A stretch of DNA of 49,209 bases, taken from assembly GCA_015069495.1 (NCBI GenBank), contig SVIN01000013.1:1-49209 (forward strand), given 5' to 3'. Below, piece after piece: positions 444 through 47,778 of this stretch (its first letter is position 1; each line of letters starts with the position of its first letter). The notes beneath the pieces are model-generated. The model saw only the letters and a list, made by a program, of their open reading frames with translations, was not told the DNA's origin and did not search any database. This stretch comes from Clostridiales bacterium (GTDB taxonomy: Bacteria; Bacillota; Clostridia; Christensenellales; Borkfalkiaceae). The position numbers and the translations under genes were made by a program.

Positions 444-2315
444 CTATCTCTTCTTTCGTTTTTCTTTTGCACACTGTGGACAACCACTTCCATTGCTACG
501 ATGGTCTATTCTTGACTGCCATTGGTGTCCTTTTTTACATTGCCACCACATTTTTCGCCCACTATGCATAGTAAAATCTGTCGGTTTTAAATCTCCATTT
601 AAATCATCGTTCCATTCTTTTGCTAATTCTGGATTAAGTGTTTGCAAATCATTATATCCAGTCAAAACTTTTTTTCCTGAACAATATGGACAACCGCCAC
701 CTGAATTTTTACTTGCGATTGTTGCCCGATATGACGGATGCCCTTCTCCACACCTCCACCACACCTTTTTATTGCTCTTCGGCAAAAAATCAGCAGGACT
801 TAATCCACTATTCTTTTCATAATCCCATTCTCTTGCCACGGTAGGATTAATTGTTTGCAAATCTGTTTTCCCTTTTAAAACTCTTCGACTTGAACAATAT
901 GGACAACCCTTTCCATAGCTTCTATTCGATAATGTTGCTTGATAAGACGGATGTCCATTGCTACATTTCCACCAGACCTTTTGATGTCCGTTAGAAAATA
1001 CTTGGGTAGGTTTAAGGTCTTTATTCAAATCATAATCCCATTCTTCCGCTAAATTTGGATTACGTGTCGCTAAATCATTATATCCTGGCAAAAGTTTTTG
1101 ACTTAAACAATATGGACAGCCACCAACTTTATTTCTATGGATAATTGTTGCTTGATAATCATGCCCATTAGCACATTTCCACCATACTTTGCGCCCACTA
1201 TTCGCAGTAAAATTTTCTGGTTTTAACTCCTTGTTTTTTTCATAATTCCATTCTTCCACAATTTTTGGGTTAATGCTTACTAAATCATTATATCCGCAAA
1301 GAACTTTTTGTCCCGCACAATACGGACAACCATTTCCATTTGCACGATTTGCAAGGGTTGCTTGATAAGAATGTCCTTTACATTTCCACCATACTTTTTT
1401 ACCGCTTTTAGAAGTGATTTTATCTGGGGTCAAATCCCCATTTTTTTCATAATCCCACTCCTTTGCCATTTCTGGATTACAAATCAAAAGTGAGTTCTTC
1501 TTTTCTGTATATATACGCAAATTCTCTATTGCAATACTATCTCTTTTCAAATCAATATCTATATTTATATTAGTTATATCATATAAAACTTGTTGAATAA
1601 TCTTCGACAAATCAGCTTTATTGCTTTGAATAATATAATCTATTGAGTAATCTTTCAAGGACGATAAACCTTCTCTTATTCTATACAGTTTAATCCCGTC
1701 TTTTTTACACTTTAAATTTTTTTCTAAATCTTTTTTTATTTTATTCTTATGCCAATACGTCCCATCGTATTCAATGGCTATTTTCATAGATGGAATATAG
1801 ATATCTAATTCATAACCTTTTGCTTTATAAGATTGTATTACATCCACTCCATATTTTTCAAGATAATATACAAGTGCATATTCAGGGAAAGACGTATGCC
1901 GTTCAGCATGACAACTAGGACACCCTGTCCCGTAATTTCTTTGAGCTACTGTCGCTTGCCATTCGTGACCTTTATCACACTTCCACCATACTTTTTTACC
2001 GCTATTCGGCATTATATCCATAGGGGTTAACCCATTATTTTTTTCATAGTTCCATTCTTTTGCTACATCTGGGTTAACAGTTTGTAAATCATTTTCCCCT
2101 TTAATTGCATATCGGTCTGAACAGTAAGGACACCCAATACCATTGTTTCTATGGTCTATTCTTGCTTCCCATTCATGACCTTTTCCGCATTTCCACCAAG
2201 CCTTTTTACCACTACCACAAGTGATTTTATCAGGATAAAAACCAAGTTCATTATTCTTTTCCCAATGCCATTCTTGCATTAAGTCTAAATTGTCTATAAT
2301 GTATTTTTTATCCAT
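444..2315 (-). CDS. PD-(D/E)XK-like nuclease with seven zinc-ribbon (DUF4379-type) repeats
   Basis: 623 aa. Seven repeats of about 70 residues each carry an EW-Y-N segment, WWKC-x2-GH and GCPYC, giving two paired C/H clusters per repeat. This is the layout of the probable zinc-ribbon family DUF4379. Repeats 1-2 cover residues about 1-140 and repeats 3-7 about 277-620. Between them lies a different domain (about 141-215) with E145, D171 in ELDI, E182-x-D184-G, H189 and a GIKLYRIRE strand. That is the arrangement of small PD-(D/E)XK endonucleases related to Vsr/DUF559. Repeat 3 has lost one residue between its C and GH. The gene stands alone with its own promoter and two terminators. Inference: a DNA-binding endonuclease, perhaps homing-like or defensive; the target is unknown. 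The ATG at 2315 follows AAAGG. Confidence 0.8.
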   Translation of the reverse strand: MDKKYIIDNLDLMQEWHWEKNNELGFYPDKITCGSGKKAWWKCGKGHEWEARIDHRNNGIGCPYCSDRYAIKGENDLQTVNPDVAKEWNYEKNNGLTPMDIMPNSGKKVWWKCDKGHEWQATVAQRNYGTGCPSCHAERHTSFPEYALVYYLEKYGVDVIQSYKAKGYELDIYIPSMKIAIEYDGTYWHKNKIKKDLEKNLKCKKDGIKLYRIREGLSSLKDYSIDYIIQSNKADLSKIIQQVLYDITNINIDIDLKRDSIAIENLRIYTEKKNSLLICNPEMAKEWDYEKNGDLTPDKITSKSGKKVWWKCKGHSYQATLANRANGNGCPYCAGQKVLCGYNDLVSINPKIVEEWNYEKNKELKPENFTANSGRKVWWKCANGHDYQATIIHRNKVGGCPYCLSQKLLPGYNDLATRNPNLAEEWDYDLNKDLKPTQVFSNGHQKVWWKCSNGHPSYQATLSNRSYGKGCPYCSSRRVLKGKTDLQTINPTVAREWDYEKNSGLSPADFLPKSNKKVWWRCGEGHPSYRATIASKNSGGGCPYCSGKKVLTGYNDLQTLNPELAKEWNDDLNGDLKPTDFTMHSGRKMWWQCKKGHQWQSRIDHRSNGSGCPQCAKEKRKKR

Positions 2316-2403: not shown

Positions 2404-2542
2404 GCGGATGAATATTTTGGCTACGCCAAAGCGTCGTCGCACCGTCAGGCTCCGCCCTATCCCAAAACCTCGTATTCGGATGCTCCTCGCGTGAACCCAC
2501 AATACTTTGTGCGTTCACTAAACTATCCCTTCATCCGCACCA
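2404..2542. repeat. tRNA-end-matched inverted-repeat element A (beside tRNA-Leu)
   Basis: A 139-nt unit starts GCGGATGA (2404-2411) and ends TCATCCGC-ACCA (2531-2542). These ends equal the acceptor stem and encoded CCA tail of the adjacent tRNA-Leu, in facing orientation. The right end shares a perfect 22-bp inverted identity with the tRNA 3' end (2524-2545 versus 2573-2594). Inside are a small hairpin (TTGGC/GCCAA), the box AAAGCGTCGTC (2428-2438) and the box GCTCCTCGCGTGAACC (2482-2497). Both boxes recur with identical 54-nt spacing in element B near tRNA-Ser. There is no ORF worth calling. See findings. Confidence 0.7.
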
Positions 2543-2545
2543 CGC

Positions 2546-2571
2546 AAAAAGCGCACCCATAAGGGGTGCGC
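2546..2571 (-). terminator. terminator of tRNA-Leu
   Basis: GCGCACCC (2551-2558) pairs with GGGTGCGC (2564-2571). On the minus strand the stem is followed by five T residues. It sits at the centre of the larger inverted repeat made by the tRNA 3' end and element A. Confidence 0.8.
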
Positions 2572-2576
2572 CTGCG

Positions 2577-2661
2577 TGGTGCGGATGAAGGGATTTGAAC
2601 CCACACGGTGTTACCCACAGGAACCTGAAACCTGCGCGTCTGCCAATTTCGCCACATCCGC
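2577..2661 (-). tRNA. tRNA-Leu(CAG)
   Basis: 85 nt including an encoded CCA. The acceptor stem is GCGGATG/CATCCGC. A leucine-type D-arm, anticodon loop TTCAGGT (anticodon CAG), a long variable arm and a GTTCAAATC T-loop are all present. Two oddities: T-T at pair 31-39 of the anticodon stem, and a T-T plus G-T at the outer end of the T-stem. It begins 12 nt after the pepE stop codon, so it may be processed from the tsaC-pepE transcript. Confidence 0.92.
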
Positions 2662-3395: not shown

Positions 3396-3848
3396 TTATT
3401 TATTGTATTTTTCTTCAATCGCCTTAATCTTTGCAATACGGCGGTCGTGGCGTTCCCCGCCCTCGTATTCACAGGTCAAAAATGCATTGACCATTTCTTC
3501 CATCAAGCCAACGCCCACCACTTTTTCACCAAACGCAATCATGTTGGCGTCGTTGTGGTAACGAGTGTATTTCGCACAATACACGTCGTGACAATGTGCG
3601 CAACGAATACCAGGCACTTTGTTTGCCACAATCGATACGCCAATCCCCGACGAGCATACCAAAACTCCTCTTTCACAATCTCCGCTTGCCACCGCTTCCG
3701 CCGCAAGCACGGCAAAATCAGGGTAATCGCAAGATGCCGTAGAATCCGTACCGAAATCCACCACGCTGTGTCCGCATTTTTCCAAATACGCAATCACCGC
3801 TTTTTTTAAGTTCAAACCGCCATGGTCACATGCTACTGCAATTTTCAT
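3396..3848 (-). CDS. rpiB: ribose-5-phosphate isomerase B (RpiB/LacAB family)
   Basis: 150 aa. Interconverts ribose 5-phosphate and ribulose 5-phosphate in the non-oxidative pentose phosphate pathway. Visible family residues: D8-H9 near the N-terminus, GVLVCSSGIGVSI with Cys65 as the catalytic base, and RYHNDANM (His98-Asn99-Asp100). Start ATG 3848 lies 10 nt after the phosphatase stop. The order sua5, low-molecular-weight phosphatase, rpiB matches ywlC-ywlE-ywlF of Bacillus. LacA/LacB sugar-phosphate isomerases are the alternative reading, but the neighbourhood favours RpiB. Confidence 0.92.
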   Translation of the reverse strand: MKIAVACDHGGLNLKKAVIAYLEKCGHSVVDFGTDSTASCDYPDFAVLAAEAVASGDCERGVLVCSSGIGVSIVANKVPGIRCAHCHDVYCAKYTRYHNDANMIAFGEKVVGVGLMEEMVNAFLTCEYEGGERHDRRIAKIKAIEEKYNK

Positions 3849-17318: not shown

Positions 17319-17461
17319 GCAGAGAAGATATTTTGCCAACTCTGTTGGCAAAGCGTCGTCACTCGGTCGAGCAAACGGAAGCAACTTTTCTTCATACTGC
17401 CTCGCTCCTCGCGTGAACCTCCGAACACCTCGAACCCTTTCGCAATCTCTTCTCTGCGCCA
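17319..17461. repeat. tRNA-end-matched inverted-repeat element B
   Basis: 143 nt. Starts GCAGAGAAGA (17319-17328) and ends TCTTCTCTGC-GCCA (17448-17461), matching the acceptor stem, discriminator and CCA of the nearby tRNA-Ser. Next to the left end is a hairpin TTGCCAAC/GTTGGCAA. The box AAAGCGTCGTC (17350-17360) and the box GCTCCTCGCGTGAACC (17404-17419) are identical to those of element A, and the 54-nt offset between them is the same. Confidence 0.7.
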
Positions 17462-17506: not shown

Positions 17507-17649
17507 AGAAGAGGATTTGCGCCTTTAGCGGCGCGCCCCGCTGGGCAATTATTAATTGCCCATTTTGCTTGACATGTATTCCTTTTCGTAAGTTCCGTAA
17601 AGCAAAACGCTCACTCTCGTTCGCGGCTCCCACCCTCAAATCCTCTTCT
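17507..17649. repeat. tRNA-end-matched inverted-repeat element D
   Basis: 143 nt, bounded by perfect 13-bp inverted repeats AGAAGAGGATTTG (17507-17519) and CAAATCCTCTTCT (17637-17649). These equal the T-arm/acceptor junction of tRNA-Ser. Internal palindromes: GCGCC/GGCGC and TGGGCAATTA/TAATTGCCCA. The core differs from A and B. The segment after it (17658-17683) continues as an inverted copy of the tRNA-Ser trailer up to the terminator loop. Confidence 0.6.
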
Positions 17650-17703: not shown

Positions 17704-17794
17704 TGGCGCAGAGAAGAGGATTTGAACCTCCGGTACGTTTCAGGCGTACACACGATTTCCAATCGTGCTCCTTAAACCACTCAGACATCTCTGC
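17704..17794 (-). tRNA. tRNA-Ser(GGA)
   Basis: 91 nt with encoded CCA. Acceptor stem GCAGAGA/TCTCTGC, discriminator G, anticodon stem CACGA/TCGTG enclosing TTGGAAA (anticodon GGA), class II variable arm GTACGCCTGAAACGTAC, T-loop GTTCAAATC. All stems pair well. Confidence 0.96.
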
Positions 17795-25902: not shown

Positions 25903-26269
25903 GGGGGTGCCCCGGATTCGATTGCCGGTGAGCGAAAGGATAAGCATACCGCAGACGGAGTGCCTGCGCAAAAACATTCCACTTAAATTTAAATGCAAAT
26001 TATAATGCAAACTACGCTTACGCAGCGTAACTTCGTTTATTAACGAATCGTCGCGCCCGATTTATCCGTCGGTTGGGGTCGCGGCGTCATCAAGACGGAG
26101 CCCTCTTGTAAAAATCGGAAAGTGTTTTTATAAGAGTATTTAGCTTTCTGCGACTTTCAAAGCGTGTTTACCCGCGTTGCAAGTGTAAGAAATAATAGAT
26201 AAACTAAGTATGTAGAAAGTTTTTTGGCAGCCGAGTAAGACGTCGGTTCAACTCCGACCACCTCCACCA
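25903..26269 (+). ncRNA. ssrA: transfer-messenger RNA (tmRNA)
   Basis: 367 nt. The 5' end GGGGGTGCCCCGGATTCGA and 3' end GTCGGTTCAACTCCGACCACCTCCACCA-type acceptor/T-arm close the tRNA-like domain. The resume frame reads A-N-Y-N-A-N-Y-A-Y-A-A then TAA (GCA at 25994 onward). The residue before the final AA is Tyr, where most tags have Leu or Val. Pseudoknot-like paired segments follow the tag. Rescues stalled ribosomes and marks products for ClpXP-type proteolysis. Confidence 0.96.
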
Positions 26270-41489: not shown

Positions 41490-42803
41490 TTATAATACAT
41501 TGGTTAAGATATCTACCAAACCGCAACCGCCCAAGCGATTGATACGAATATTGTCAAATTTCAATTTCTTCTTTAATTCCTTCAAGGTCATTCCGCAAAG
41601 GAACACATCCTCAAATTCTTTCAGCGTATTGCCGGGCAACACGATTTCGTCAAAATCGCCCCCTGCTTTGCGGTACGCTTCTACCGCTTTCAAAATATCC
41701 TGCCCAGTCAACAGGCCTGTACAAGTCACCGTCGCGCCGAAAAACTCGTTGACCACGGGCAATACGTCCGTTTCCAAATTACCAATCACCGCGCGCGCTT
41801 TGTTCAACACTTCACGGTTAATTTTCTCCGCGCTGACCCCGCTGATGATCAAACTTTTCTTTTTCTTCGTCAACGTTGTGCAATCGGGCAAATCGGCAAG
41901 CCCCGCATGGACTTCAGACAAAAATTTTGCCGTCATACCAATGCCGTTTTCTATTTGTTCAAAATCCCCGTAAAAATCCGCGGATTTCAACGTTCTGCCC
42001 GCTTTTACAAAATATTCATCCGCAGGCAAAAGGAAATTTACCCCGAACTCCTTGTTCAATTCATCTACCAAATCCAACAGCTTTTCACTGTATTCCTTGT
42101 CCACGTCCGCAATCGGGTACAATCCCTCGCGGTATTTCGTAATCCCCGTCGGCACGCACGCCAAATCACGGACAGCGGGGTAATAGGAAAAGAGTTTCCG
42201 CGCCGTATACGCCAATTCTTCTCCGTCGTTTTCATTGGGTACAAGCACCGCTTGGCAGTGAATCTCAATCCCGCCCTTTGCCAATCGGTCGATTTGCTCC
42301 ACGATTTTCCCTGCGAAACGGTTGCGGAGCAACTTCACTCGCAAATCGGGATTCATCGTATGCACGGACACGTACAAGGGGGAAAGTTTCAAACGGATAA
42401 TCCTTTCCAACCCCTCATCCGAAAGATTGGTCAAGGTCACGAAATTCCCGCAGGAAAAACTCATACCGTAATCATCGTCTTTCACGTATAGACTCTCGCG
42501 CAAGCCTTTGGGCATCTGGTCTACGAAGCAGAACACGCAATGGTTGTGGCAGGTACGAATGGCGGTATTTTTGGCAAATTCCACACCCAAATCTTCCCCC
42601 TCGTCCTTTTCCACCTCAACGACCGTTTCCCCTTGTCCGCGCTTGTCGCGTACGGTCATGGTGAAATGCGTTGCCTCGCAGTAGTACAAATAATCCAACT
42701 CGTCCTCGCAAGCAAAACCGTCGAAGGCGATGATTTCGTCCCCGACCTCTAACCCCAGCTCTTTGGCAAGGGAACCGCGTTTTACTTTCGTTATCTTTAA
42801 CAT
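41490..42803 (-). CDS. DUF512 protein: PDZ domain plus radical-SAM-like Fe-S domain
   Basis: 437 aa. N-terminal PDZ-like domain (1-70; ITKVKRGSLAKELGLEVGDEIIAFDG), then C85-x3-C89-x2-C92 (CHNHCVFCFVDQ) of a radical-SAM-like TIM barrel and the DUF512 C-terminal half (LPADEYFVKAGRTL, VSVHTMNPDLRVKLLRN, CTGLLTGQDI, FLCGMTL). Conserved neighbour of der in clostridia. Reaction unknown. Located 10 nt after rluD. Confidence 0.92.
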   Translation of the reverse strand: MLKITKVKRGSLAKELGLEVGDEIIAFDGFACEDELDYLYYCEATHFTMTVRDKRGQGETVVEVEKDEGEDLGVEFAKNTAIRTCHNHCVFCFVDQMPKGLRESLYVKDDDYGMSFSCGNFVTLTNLSDEGLERIIRLKLSPLYVSVHTMNPDLRVKLLRNRFAGKIVEQIDRLAKGGIEIHCQAVLVPNENDGEELAYTARKLFSYYPAVRDLACVPTGITKYREGLYPIADVDKEYSEKLLDLVDELNKEFGVNFLLPADEYFVKAGRTLKSADFYGDFEQIENGIGMTAKFLSEVHAGLADLPDCTTLTKKKKSLIISGVSAEKINREVLNKARAVIGNLETDVLPVVNEFFGATVTCTGLLTGQDILKAVEAYRKAGGDFDEIVLPGNTLKEFEDVFLCGMTLKELKKKLKFDNIRINRLGGCGLVDILTNVL

Positions 42804-47620: not shown

Positions 47621-47670
47621 CCGCAAACGCACCGTTTTATACTTCAACGCATACATGGGTGCTTCATTTG

Positions 47671-47765
47671 TTAGCGGACGCGCTTTGACATCGCAGGAGA
47701 AACACCCCTTTCGTTCATCGACAACGTCCCGTTCGATGACACTTTACGCGCCAAAACTACTCTTA
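47671..47765 (-). promoter_or_regulatory. tetrahydrofolate (THF) riboswitch aptamer
   Basis: On the minus strand the conserved THF-aptamer blocks appear in order: AGAGTAG, GCGCGTAAAGTG, a stem TCATCGA/TCGATGA enclosing ACGGGACGTTG, ACGAAAGG, AAAGCGCGTCCGC. P1 would be GTAAG/CTAAC with one mismatch. Known members bind reduced folates and control folate transport or synthesis genes, consistent with folT downstream. Confidence 0.85.
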
Positions 47766-47778
47766 CTTTCTAAAATCT

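Follow-up and report, generated by a model that had tools for sequence, protein, structure and literature searches.

Small structured units with arms copied from the host tRNA lie behind tRNA genes in a family of Clostridia

The tRNA-Leu and tRNA-Ser loci of the window

The window, the whole stretch of 49,209 nucleotides analysed here, is contig C10 of assembly G000 (1.74 Mb; G, C and L numbers are our handles for genomes, contigs and loci). Rfam searches at gathering score return two tRNAs, a tmRNA and a THF riboswitch in the window. Element A lies behind tRNA-Leu(cag), and behind tRNA-Ser(gga) a unit of a second kind, class II, is followed by element B, which like element A belongs to class I (Table 1). 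Directly behind element A stands a gene for 623 aa in which DUF4379 treble-clef stretches occur seven times; it also has an REase_MTES_1575 match below cut-off and is possibly cargo.

A first-pass annotation had described element A as a unit facing tRNA-Leu, with ends copied from the acceptor stem and CCA of that tRNA, and element B as a relative with the same internal boxes and ends fitted to tRNA-Ser. The perfect 22-bp inverted identity it reported is present, with arms at 2525-2546 and 2573-2594 that are 100% complementary and 26 nt apart. The ends of element A pair as described, GCGGATGAA at 2404-2412 with TTCATCCGC further on; neither CCA nor a further terminator is recognisable at 2404-2412. 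Both boxes occur again beside tRNA-Ser(gga) at 17353-17416, in the same 64-base span as at 2431-2494, and the outer ends of element B match tRNA-Ser. Two points had to be amended. Element A adjoins tRNA-Leu but lies downstream of it on the tRNA strand (minus) and does not face it, and the description of its tRNA-derived ends, correct for acceptor and CCA, was incomplete, as the 5' half of the T-stem up to R57 is copied too. Element A folds far better than its dinucleotide shuffles on both strands, with z scores of -5.41 on the plus strand and -4.02 on the tRNA strand. The two-box pattern has five matches in the G000 genome and none for the reversed control. A BLAST match at window position 42008, 24 kb from the nearest tRNA, is chance-like.

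Table 1. Features of the window (CM, covariance model)
Feature	Position	Strand	Basis or remark
tRNA-Leu(cag)	2577-2661	-	ARAGORN; Rfam tRNA 2580-2661; element A behind it
Terminator-like hairpin between tRNA-Leu CCA and element A	2542-2578	-	Sequence; partly inside the inverted-repeat arms
Element A, class I unit	2404-2546	-	Read on the tRNA-Leu strand
Element A, rcT3: inverted copy of tRNA 3' end, 22 bp including CCA	2525-2546	-	Inverted-repeat comparison
Element A, hairpin P2	2491-2518	-	CM match 2411-2522 in C10 of G000; fold
Element A, T5b: copy of T-stem 5' half, TTC and R57	2492-2501	-	3' side of P2
Element A, hairpin P3: conserved GA-rich base, variable apical part	2431-2491	-	Pattern, CM, alignment A1
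Element A, P3 boxes	2431-2440 and 2482-2491	-	
Element A, hairpin P4: TTTGGC-GTA-GCCAAA on minus strand	2416-2430	-	Folds
Element A, T3b: acceptor-side copy of tRNA 3' end	2404-2412	-	Sequence, folds
tRNA-Ser(gga)	17704-17794	-	ARAGORN; class II unit, then element B behind it
Class II unit directly behind tRNA-Ser(gga)	17507-17649	-	Pattern match, flanks (L206), structure
Class II unit, tailored stem arms	17507-17519 and 17638-17649	-	
Class II unit, conserved box	17520-17541	-	
Element B, class I unit	17319-17461	-	CM match 17327-17444; farther from tRNA-Ser(gga) than class II
623-aa gene	444-2315	-	Directly behind element A
tmRNA	25903-26269		Tag ANYNANYAYAA
THF riboswitch	47670-47766		

Anatomy, distribution and tailoring of the units

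Read on the tRNA strand, class I units follow one order: tRNA-CCA, a terminator-like hairpin, the inverted copy of the tRNA 3' end (rcT3), the hairpins P2, P3 and P4, and finally T3b, a copy of about A58 to CCA that is often followed by another terminator. The 3' side of P2 is T5b, which copies T-stem positions 49-53 with TTC56 and R57. A conserved folded core thereby splits the copy of the tRNA end near 57|58. In P3 a variable apical part sits on a conserved base where G-C pairs combine with tandem G-A appositions, and short forms have its inner stem swapped for other complements (GCAACG/CGTTGC, GCAAGC/GCTTGC or GGGGC/GCCCC). The distance from the tRNA end to the end of T3b is 135-198 nt at 53 loci, and in 61 of 68 first units the covariance-model match begins at a distance of 31-56 nt from the tRNA. 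The first-pass annotation also considered that the unit might be an RNA matured by the tRNA 3'-processing machinery; CCA is paired within the inverted repeat in at least one of 14 folds (L040) and free in others. Inspection of the printed sequences revealed no apparent protein-coding frame shared by the cores, and of the Rfam 15 families searched in 10 loci at E≤1 only tRNA scored above cut-off.

In alignment A1, 26 copies chosen by their boxes, the named structure leaves 69.4% of cells paired, compared with 61.8% in shuffles, with G-A appositions scored as unpaired. The covariation score is 0.273; shuffles give 0.143 ± 0.012, and sliding the partners by 1-3 columns gives no more than 0.098. 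On the tRNA strand G-U cells outnumber A-C cells by 144 to 46 in an alignment fitted to the model (A2; P2 46:14, GAA/TTC 31:15, P3 45:15, P4 22:2). Folding z scores of 53 elements average -1.87 on the tRNA strand and -2.30 on the opposite strand, the tRNA strand being the more negative in 18 of the 53. Strand evidence is mixed, the G-U excess backing the tRNA strand and folding z scores not, and it would suit single-stranded DNA as well as RNA.

Class II units use the same T-loop site with a folded core unrelated to that of class I. Their 22-nt box occurs, with up to two mismatches, in 43 of 57 genus genomes, compared with 4 of 57 for the reversed control. In the 32 loci inspected, 19 copies have an upstream tRNA on the same strand within 500 nt; the distance from this tRNA to the box is 155-162 nt for 18 of them and 272 nt for the remaining one. 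A further 12 copies lie in stretches where no such tRNA occurs, and two loci whose boxes are weaker escaped the count. The fold of 29 copies is an 11-pair stem, formed by a copy of the tRNA T-loop and T-stem with its inverse, that encloses several hairpins, a small one among them having GAGA or GGGA loops in most copies. When the RNAalifold structure is scored on the alignment that gave it, the cells comprise 1002 Watson-Crick, 50 G-U, 8 A-C and 36 other combinations.

BLAST searches of G000 returned tandem units behind tRNA-Ser(cga) (C49, unit of ~167 nt), three units 166 nt apart behind tRNA-Val (C45) and single units behind tRNA-Arg and tRNA-Pro; matches in C2, C23 and C40 were chance-like, with no tRNA in the fetched stretches. 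Rfam finds 22 tRNAs in G000, of which ARAGORN recovered 21 in fetched stretches, and the sequence behind them contains further class I copies as well as the second kind of core. By eye, class I copies behind tRNA-Ser(gct) (L025, C47 of G000) seem to hold a nested insert.

A covariance model built from A1, R1, has matches in 54 of 57 genus genomes at E≤0.01, with up to 20 copies each. Unit numbers range from 20 in G063 and 19 in both G027 and G031 through three in G079 and two in G080 to zero in G001 (96% complete), G002 and G010. Among 297 sampled genomes of the order, searched at E≤0.001 with stricter filters, nine match: two of the genus and seven of the 21 listed other family members, with none among the 274 genomes of other families. 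The exact pattern was found in named records in 22 stretches, all from MAGs of uncultured Clostridia or Clostridiales and many labelled sheep, goat or deer gut, and had no match in a viral contig collection. A 16-mer with one mismatch matched 22 of 61 genomes; its matches in G052, G054 and G057, of other families, were rejected, there being no tRNA in L048-L050 and G052 also matching the control. R1 run over 97 loci gave 163 matches at E≤0.05. Of the best 150, aligned as A2, 109 have an upstream tRNA on the same strand, 12 a downstream tRNA only and 29 neither, within fetched stretches many of which are short or at a contig edge. Chance similarity was rejected on the evidence of the two-box pattern against its reversed control, the genus-wide covariance-model matches and permutations of the T-arm comparison given below.

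Without their tRNA parts the cores are weakly alike, mean alignment scores being 0.12-0.19 in all categories (best 0.78, Pro). The nearest-neighbour core has the same tRNA in 16 of 65 cases against 7% expected (three of 68 cores, under 50 nt, excluded), which points in part to vertical descent per tRNA.

The idea that a conserved core has ends retailored to the local tRNA is supported at genus scale. The first-pass annotation had named copies with ends unlike the nearest tRNA as a refuting observation. This was checked in the 98 copies whose T5b is ungapped and whose upstream tRNA lies no more than 600 nt away: 83 agree with the local tRNA at 9/9 T5b positions, the other 15, Glu units among them, match less well, and the variable five bases are identical in 89; R1 includes T5b positions and so biases this set to GGTTC, not to particular variable bases. 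The mean match is 8.64 of 9, compared with 6.35 for tRNAs of other amino acids. For the 68 first-in-array loci summed matches reach 587, the maximum in 10,000 tRNA permutations being 487, and R57 is identical to the tRNA in 68/68 (49 G, 19 A). Class I units are carried by 18 tRNA types, and T5b tracks species variants within isoacceptors (Ser(gct) 10/10, Tyr 3/3). The variable five bases differ in 6/68 first units: Glu 4/4, one Arg and one Leu. T3b was placed at 59 of the 68 loci, nine being dropped by a demand for 10/16 matches that inflates its identity figures: 92-98% at acceptor positions, 90% at the discriminator, 86/78/76% at CCA and 59/68/73/95/95% at the T-stem positions. With three mismatches allowed, its identity extends to the 19th base from the end (A58) in 18/53, to the 20th in 1/53 and less far in 34/53, lengths that we read as a split near 57|58 followed by decay. 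The inverted copy is less constant (mean 8.12 of 12 versus 6.76). Simple tRNA duplication would give no T-loop split with a common core and was rejected. Nor do the units resemble a transposon-like MITE with fixed terminal inverted repeats independent of the target, as their ends follow the local tRNA.

That boxes are kept while the rest has diverged suggests selection and not recent copying. The same retention of helices and boxes would be expected if the units were non-coding RNA genes of the host that arose from tandem copies of a tRNA and are co-transcribed with it, and whose tRNA-matched arms sense or regulate their own tRNA in processing, stability or termination. The surplus of G-U cells that both classes show on the tRNA strand also favours such RNA genes, as do a unit between co-oriented tRNA-Phe and tRNA-Thr (L126, tRNA-Thr following 25 nt on) and tRNA-Val-like copies whose T-loop contains the core, found upstream of tRNA-Val in G000, G022 and G016, a place where covariance-model matches occur in G027, G062 and G064 as well. 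Against RNA genes stand the terminator-like hairpins that precede the units inspected, a copy number that varies from 0 to 20 within the genus, and orthologous or same-type tRNAs with different cores or none; we regard this explanation as unlikely. The tRNA-Val-like copies with the class I core lie directly upstream of tRNA-Val at L004:2088-2159 (-), L040:1694-1765 (-) and L081:1286-1352 (+), the last, in G016, appearing to have largely lost its anticodon arm. In the species looked at, tRNA-Val(gac) itself has, by eye, a mismatch in the fourth acceptor-stem pair (L010:1355-1431, L084:1397-1473).

Layered units and the genes between them

One clean pair with and without units was found, tRNA-Ala(cgc) in G000 and G031. 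Behind this tRNA G000 has no unit, and the 329 nt that follow align (335 columns, 79%) to G031 from position 343, the 342 extra nt of G031 being two class I units. The second of these ends in a 20-nt tRNA end, GAATCC...CCA, joined to the orthologous terminator. The target tRNA is thus whole and the displaced 3' end lies on the far side, a feature of integration at tRNA sites. The first-pass annotation had suggested recombination or gene conversion with the tRNA. Recombination is supported in one respect by this pair, the distal acceptor/CCA copy sitting where a displaced 3' end is expected; ongoing gene conversion is not needed for the distal copy and poorly explains the 9-10 nt T-arm copy.

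Comparison of species also reveals layers. A class II unit stands between the tRNA and a class I unit at Leu in G061, Ser(gga) in G000 and Arg in G028, and not in G000, G004 and G025, respectively. A class I unit precedes class II at Ser(gga) in G031, not in G032, and ~1 kb with a gene precedes class I at Pro in G023, not in G000. The tRNA-Ala pair and these five layered species pairs are consistent with units being gained (or lost) precisely at the T-loop while the tRNA end is preserved. We think it probable that these are insertion units at the tRNA T-loop, somewhat less so because the pairs do not tell gain from loss. Because the layers show class II units between tRNA and class I, element B, displaced by ~206 nt relative to its counterpart in G004 (L030 versus L052), appears to be the older unit and was probably pushed away by the class II unit beside tRNA-Ser(gga).

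At six of 23 loci drawn up, a small hand-picked set, the interval from the tRNA or a unit to the next unit holds an ORF of at least 120 aa. All these ORFs are on the tRNA strand and end 40-136 nt before the unit. L123 encodes an N6-methylase/type IIG-like protein and L100 an ADP-ribosylglycohydrolase with HTH as well as a PfkB kinase; the products are a UvrD-HRDC helicase in L137, an HTH protein in L138, a Sel1 protein in L184 and, in L043, a protein of 125 aa that matches nothing in Pfam. The ORFs of a seventh interval, in L164, are no longer than 97 and 88 aa and likewise have no Pfam match. A short GGTTCRA precedes the final tRNA-end bases before the next unit in L137, L138, L184 and L043. 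In L123 a direct duplication of ~110 bp of unit sequence flanks the gene, the 3' half of the second unit being absent, and in L100 the second unit lacks the Gln T-arm. Because of this anatomy of the second units and of GGTTCRA, the interval genes may have arrived by a separate route. By eye, an ~18-bp inverted repeat bounds the methylase-like gene of L123 (sense strand, ~900-920 and 3530-3550), and the right end of L100 is related to that of this repeat. Short hairpin-like repeat arrays are present behind tRNA terminators in L024, behind tRNA-Gln, and at ~900-1090 (sense) of L100.

The units could also be neutral by-products, generated by replication slippage and fold-back copying at tRNA terminators, with unequal crossing over then amplifying or removing copies. 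T-stem, acceptor and terminator sequences repeated in inverted form around hairpins, the near-identical tandem units of C45 and C49 and the direct duplication in L123 would all be accommodated in this way, and the species pairs do not tell gain from loss. Slippage leaves unexplained, however, why two unrelated cores each extend across dozens of genomes and why the T-loop split is common to the units, with R57 identical in every first unit. Already strained by the present data, it strikes us as very improbable.

A candidate insertion mechanism and its relation to known systems

Mobile DNA of bacteria often docks at tRNA genes. We propose that A and B are T-loop insertion units that use a folded attachment site in trans, a statement to which, taken as a whole, we give a little less than an even chance. 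Gene-less units of ~135-200 nt (with terminator) would insert into the T-loop of tRNA genes, near R57|A58. As each brings its own tRNA 3' end and terminator, the tRNA would stay whole. The old tRNA 3' end would be left at the far side, as seen in the one pair with and without units and as anatomy suggests elsewhere. Units next to the tRNA would be the newest and older ones pushed away, the direction, gain or loss, being presumed. The inverted tRNA end, P2, the T-arm copy, P3 and P4, which together form the conserved portion, most likely make up a folded attachment site: P3 and P4 extruded from a single strand would let the T-arm copy meet the A58-CCA copy, and the joined copies would restore the tRNA 3' end where exchange takes place. 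One trans-acting recombination activity, for which an enzyme must be postulated, could then treat tRNA gene and unit as equivalent sites. The unit would be a counterpart of the integron attC site with tRNA genes as its target. Counting against the proposal are the mixed strand evidence, the agreement of just 59-73% at the first three T-stem positions of the displaced end, the reach of its identity to A58 in only 19/53, the 15 of 98 T-arm copies that depart from the local tRNA, the incomplete or untailored second units of L123 and L100, and the outcome of the enzyme searches.

The enzyme searches covered PF00589, the integron integrase, IS110 and RVT_1. No dedicated enzyme that tracks the units is found among the PF00589, IS110 and RVT_1 proteins of 10-12 genomes. 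PF00589 counts in ten genomes do not follow unit number, with one protein each in G063, G027 and G079, five in G031, six in G001 and eight in G080. The single PF00589 proteins of G063 and G027 are Xer-like, with the best score for XerS and below every NCBIfam cut-off, and their gene adjoins a GTPase gene, presumably hflX. An integron integrase (IntI) is not found in these two genomes (52.6 and 57.1 bits against a cut-off of 265). An IS110 DEDD transposase occurs in three of 12 genomes, one each in G031, G064 and G080, with no match in G000, G063, G027, G062, G011, G013, G035, G001 and G079, and RVT_1 in two of 12 (G031 and G063), with none in G027, G062 and G000. IS110, reverse transcriptase and integron integrase were rejected as partners, their presence not being associated with units. 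An integrase gene within the unit is not found and is not expected, because 135-198 nt (53 loci) leave no room for one.

The enzymes could instead belong to other elements. T-loops are known integrase sites, and the units might be mini-satellites mobilised by phage or conjugative-element integrases that attack the same T-loops, tailoring then reflecting the specificity of each integrase. At L042, L046 and L051, stretches without a tRNA, a class I unit adjoins a tRNA-like 3' end that breaks off around the T-loop, where other DNA takes over; it looks as though a larger element had gone in at this position. A core common to 18 tRNA types is not what many different integrases would be expected to produce, the viral contig collection lacks the exact pattern, and two unit-rich genomes, G063 and G027, have only one PF00589 protein each. 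We therefore consider satellites of this kind distinctly unlikely.

Among known systems, integrative elements at tRNA sites (genomic islands, tycheposons) lie at a tRNA gene with the 3' end kept and a displaced copy on the far side. The proposed T-loop insertion units share all of this, but they are only 135-200 nt long, without genes or integrase, and they copy the tRNA end both in inverted form and in a form divided by a structured core. The E. coli tyrT/rtT repeats, direct copies at one tRNA, are likewise tandem units behind a tRNA gene that carry the tRNA 3' end; we know of no split T-arm or P3/P4 core in rtT, and the Rfam RtT family has no match in 10 loci at E≤1. IS110 bridge RNA is, like the unit, a structured sequence with segments matching both target halves, but the transposase was not found in the unit-rich G063, G027 and G062. 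The attC site (PMC2727003, PMC3053210) is a folded recombination site whose base is conserved and whose terminal part varies. Class I units resemble it as folded site-like sequences of the same build, their arrays adjoin a fixed anchor, and the ORF is on the same strand as, and upstream of, the unit in 6/6 intervals with an ORF of at least 120 aa, as in integron cassettes. In contrast to integrons, the anchor is a tRNA gene, no integron integrase was recognised, the arms copy the tRNA and most units are gene-less.

Because each known kind tested fails a defining feature, we rate the units as new in kind, working partly like tRNA-site integration and partly like integron cassettes. The titles and abstract beginnings of the literature searched contain no description of such units. 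In one bacterial family, 18 tRNA types carry very small structured units with arms that for the most part reproduce the host tRNA exactly, and these units point to a means, so far undescribed, by which DNA is placed at tRNA genes that stay intact. If the units recombine, they would be the smallest tRNA-targeting insertion units known to us, and copied target arms around an extruded core would be their principle of site choice. If they are RNAs, they would form two new RNA families tied to tRNA genes.

A wider reading, which we hold to be rather unlikely, is a gene-capture platform anchored on tRNA genes and made up of class I units, class II units and short-ended gene units. The tRNA-copy arms would address the T-loop of the particular tRNA whose T-arm and acceptor they copy, the core hairpins would sit at the exchange point and the arrays would store genes, through an integron-like activity with another enzyme or with RNA guidance. 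The genes stored in such a platform would be those for restriction-methylase-like, UvrD helicase, ADP-ribosylglycohydrolase and Sel1 proteins.
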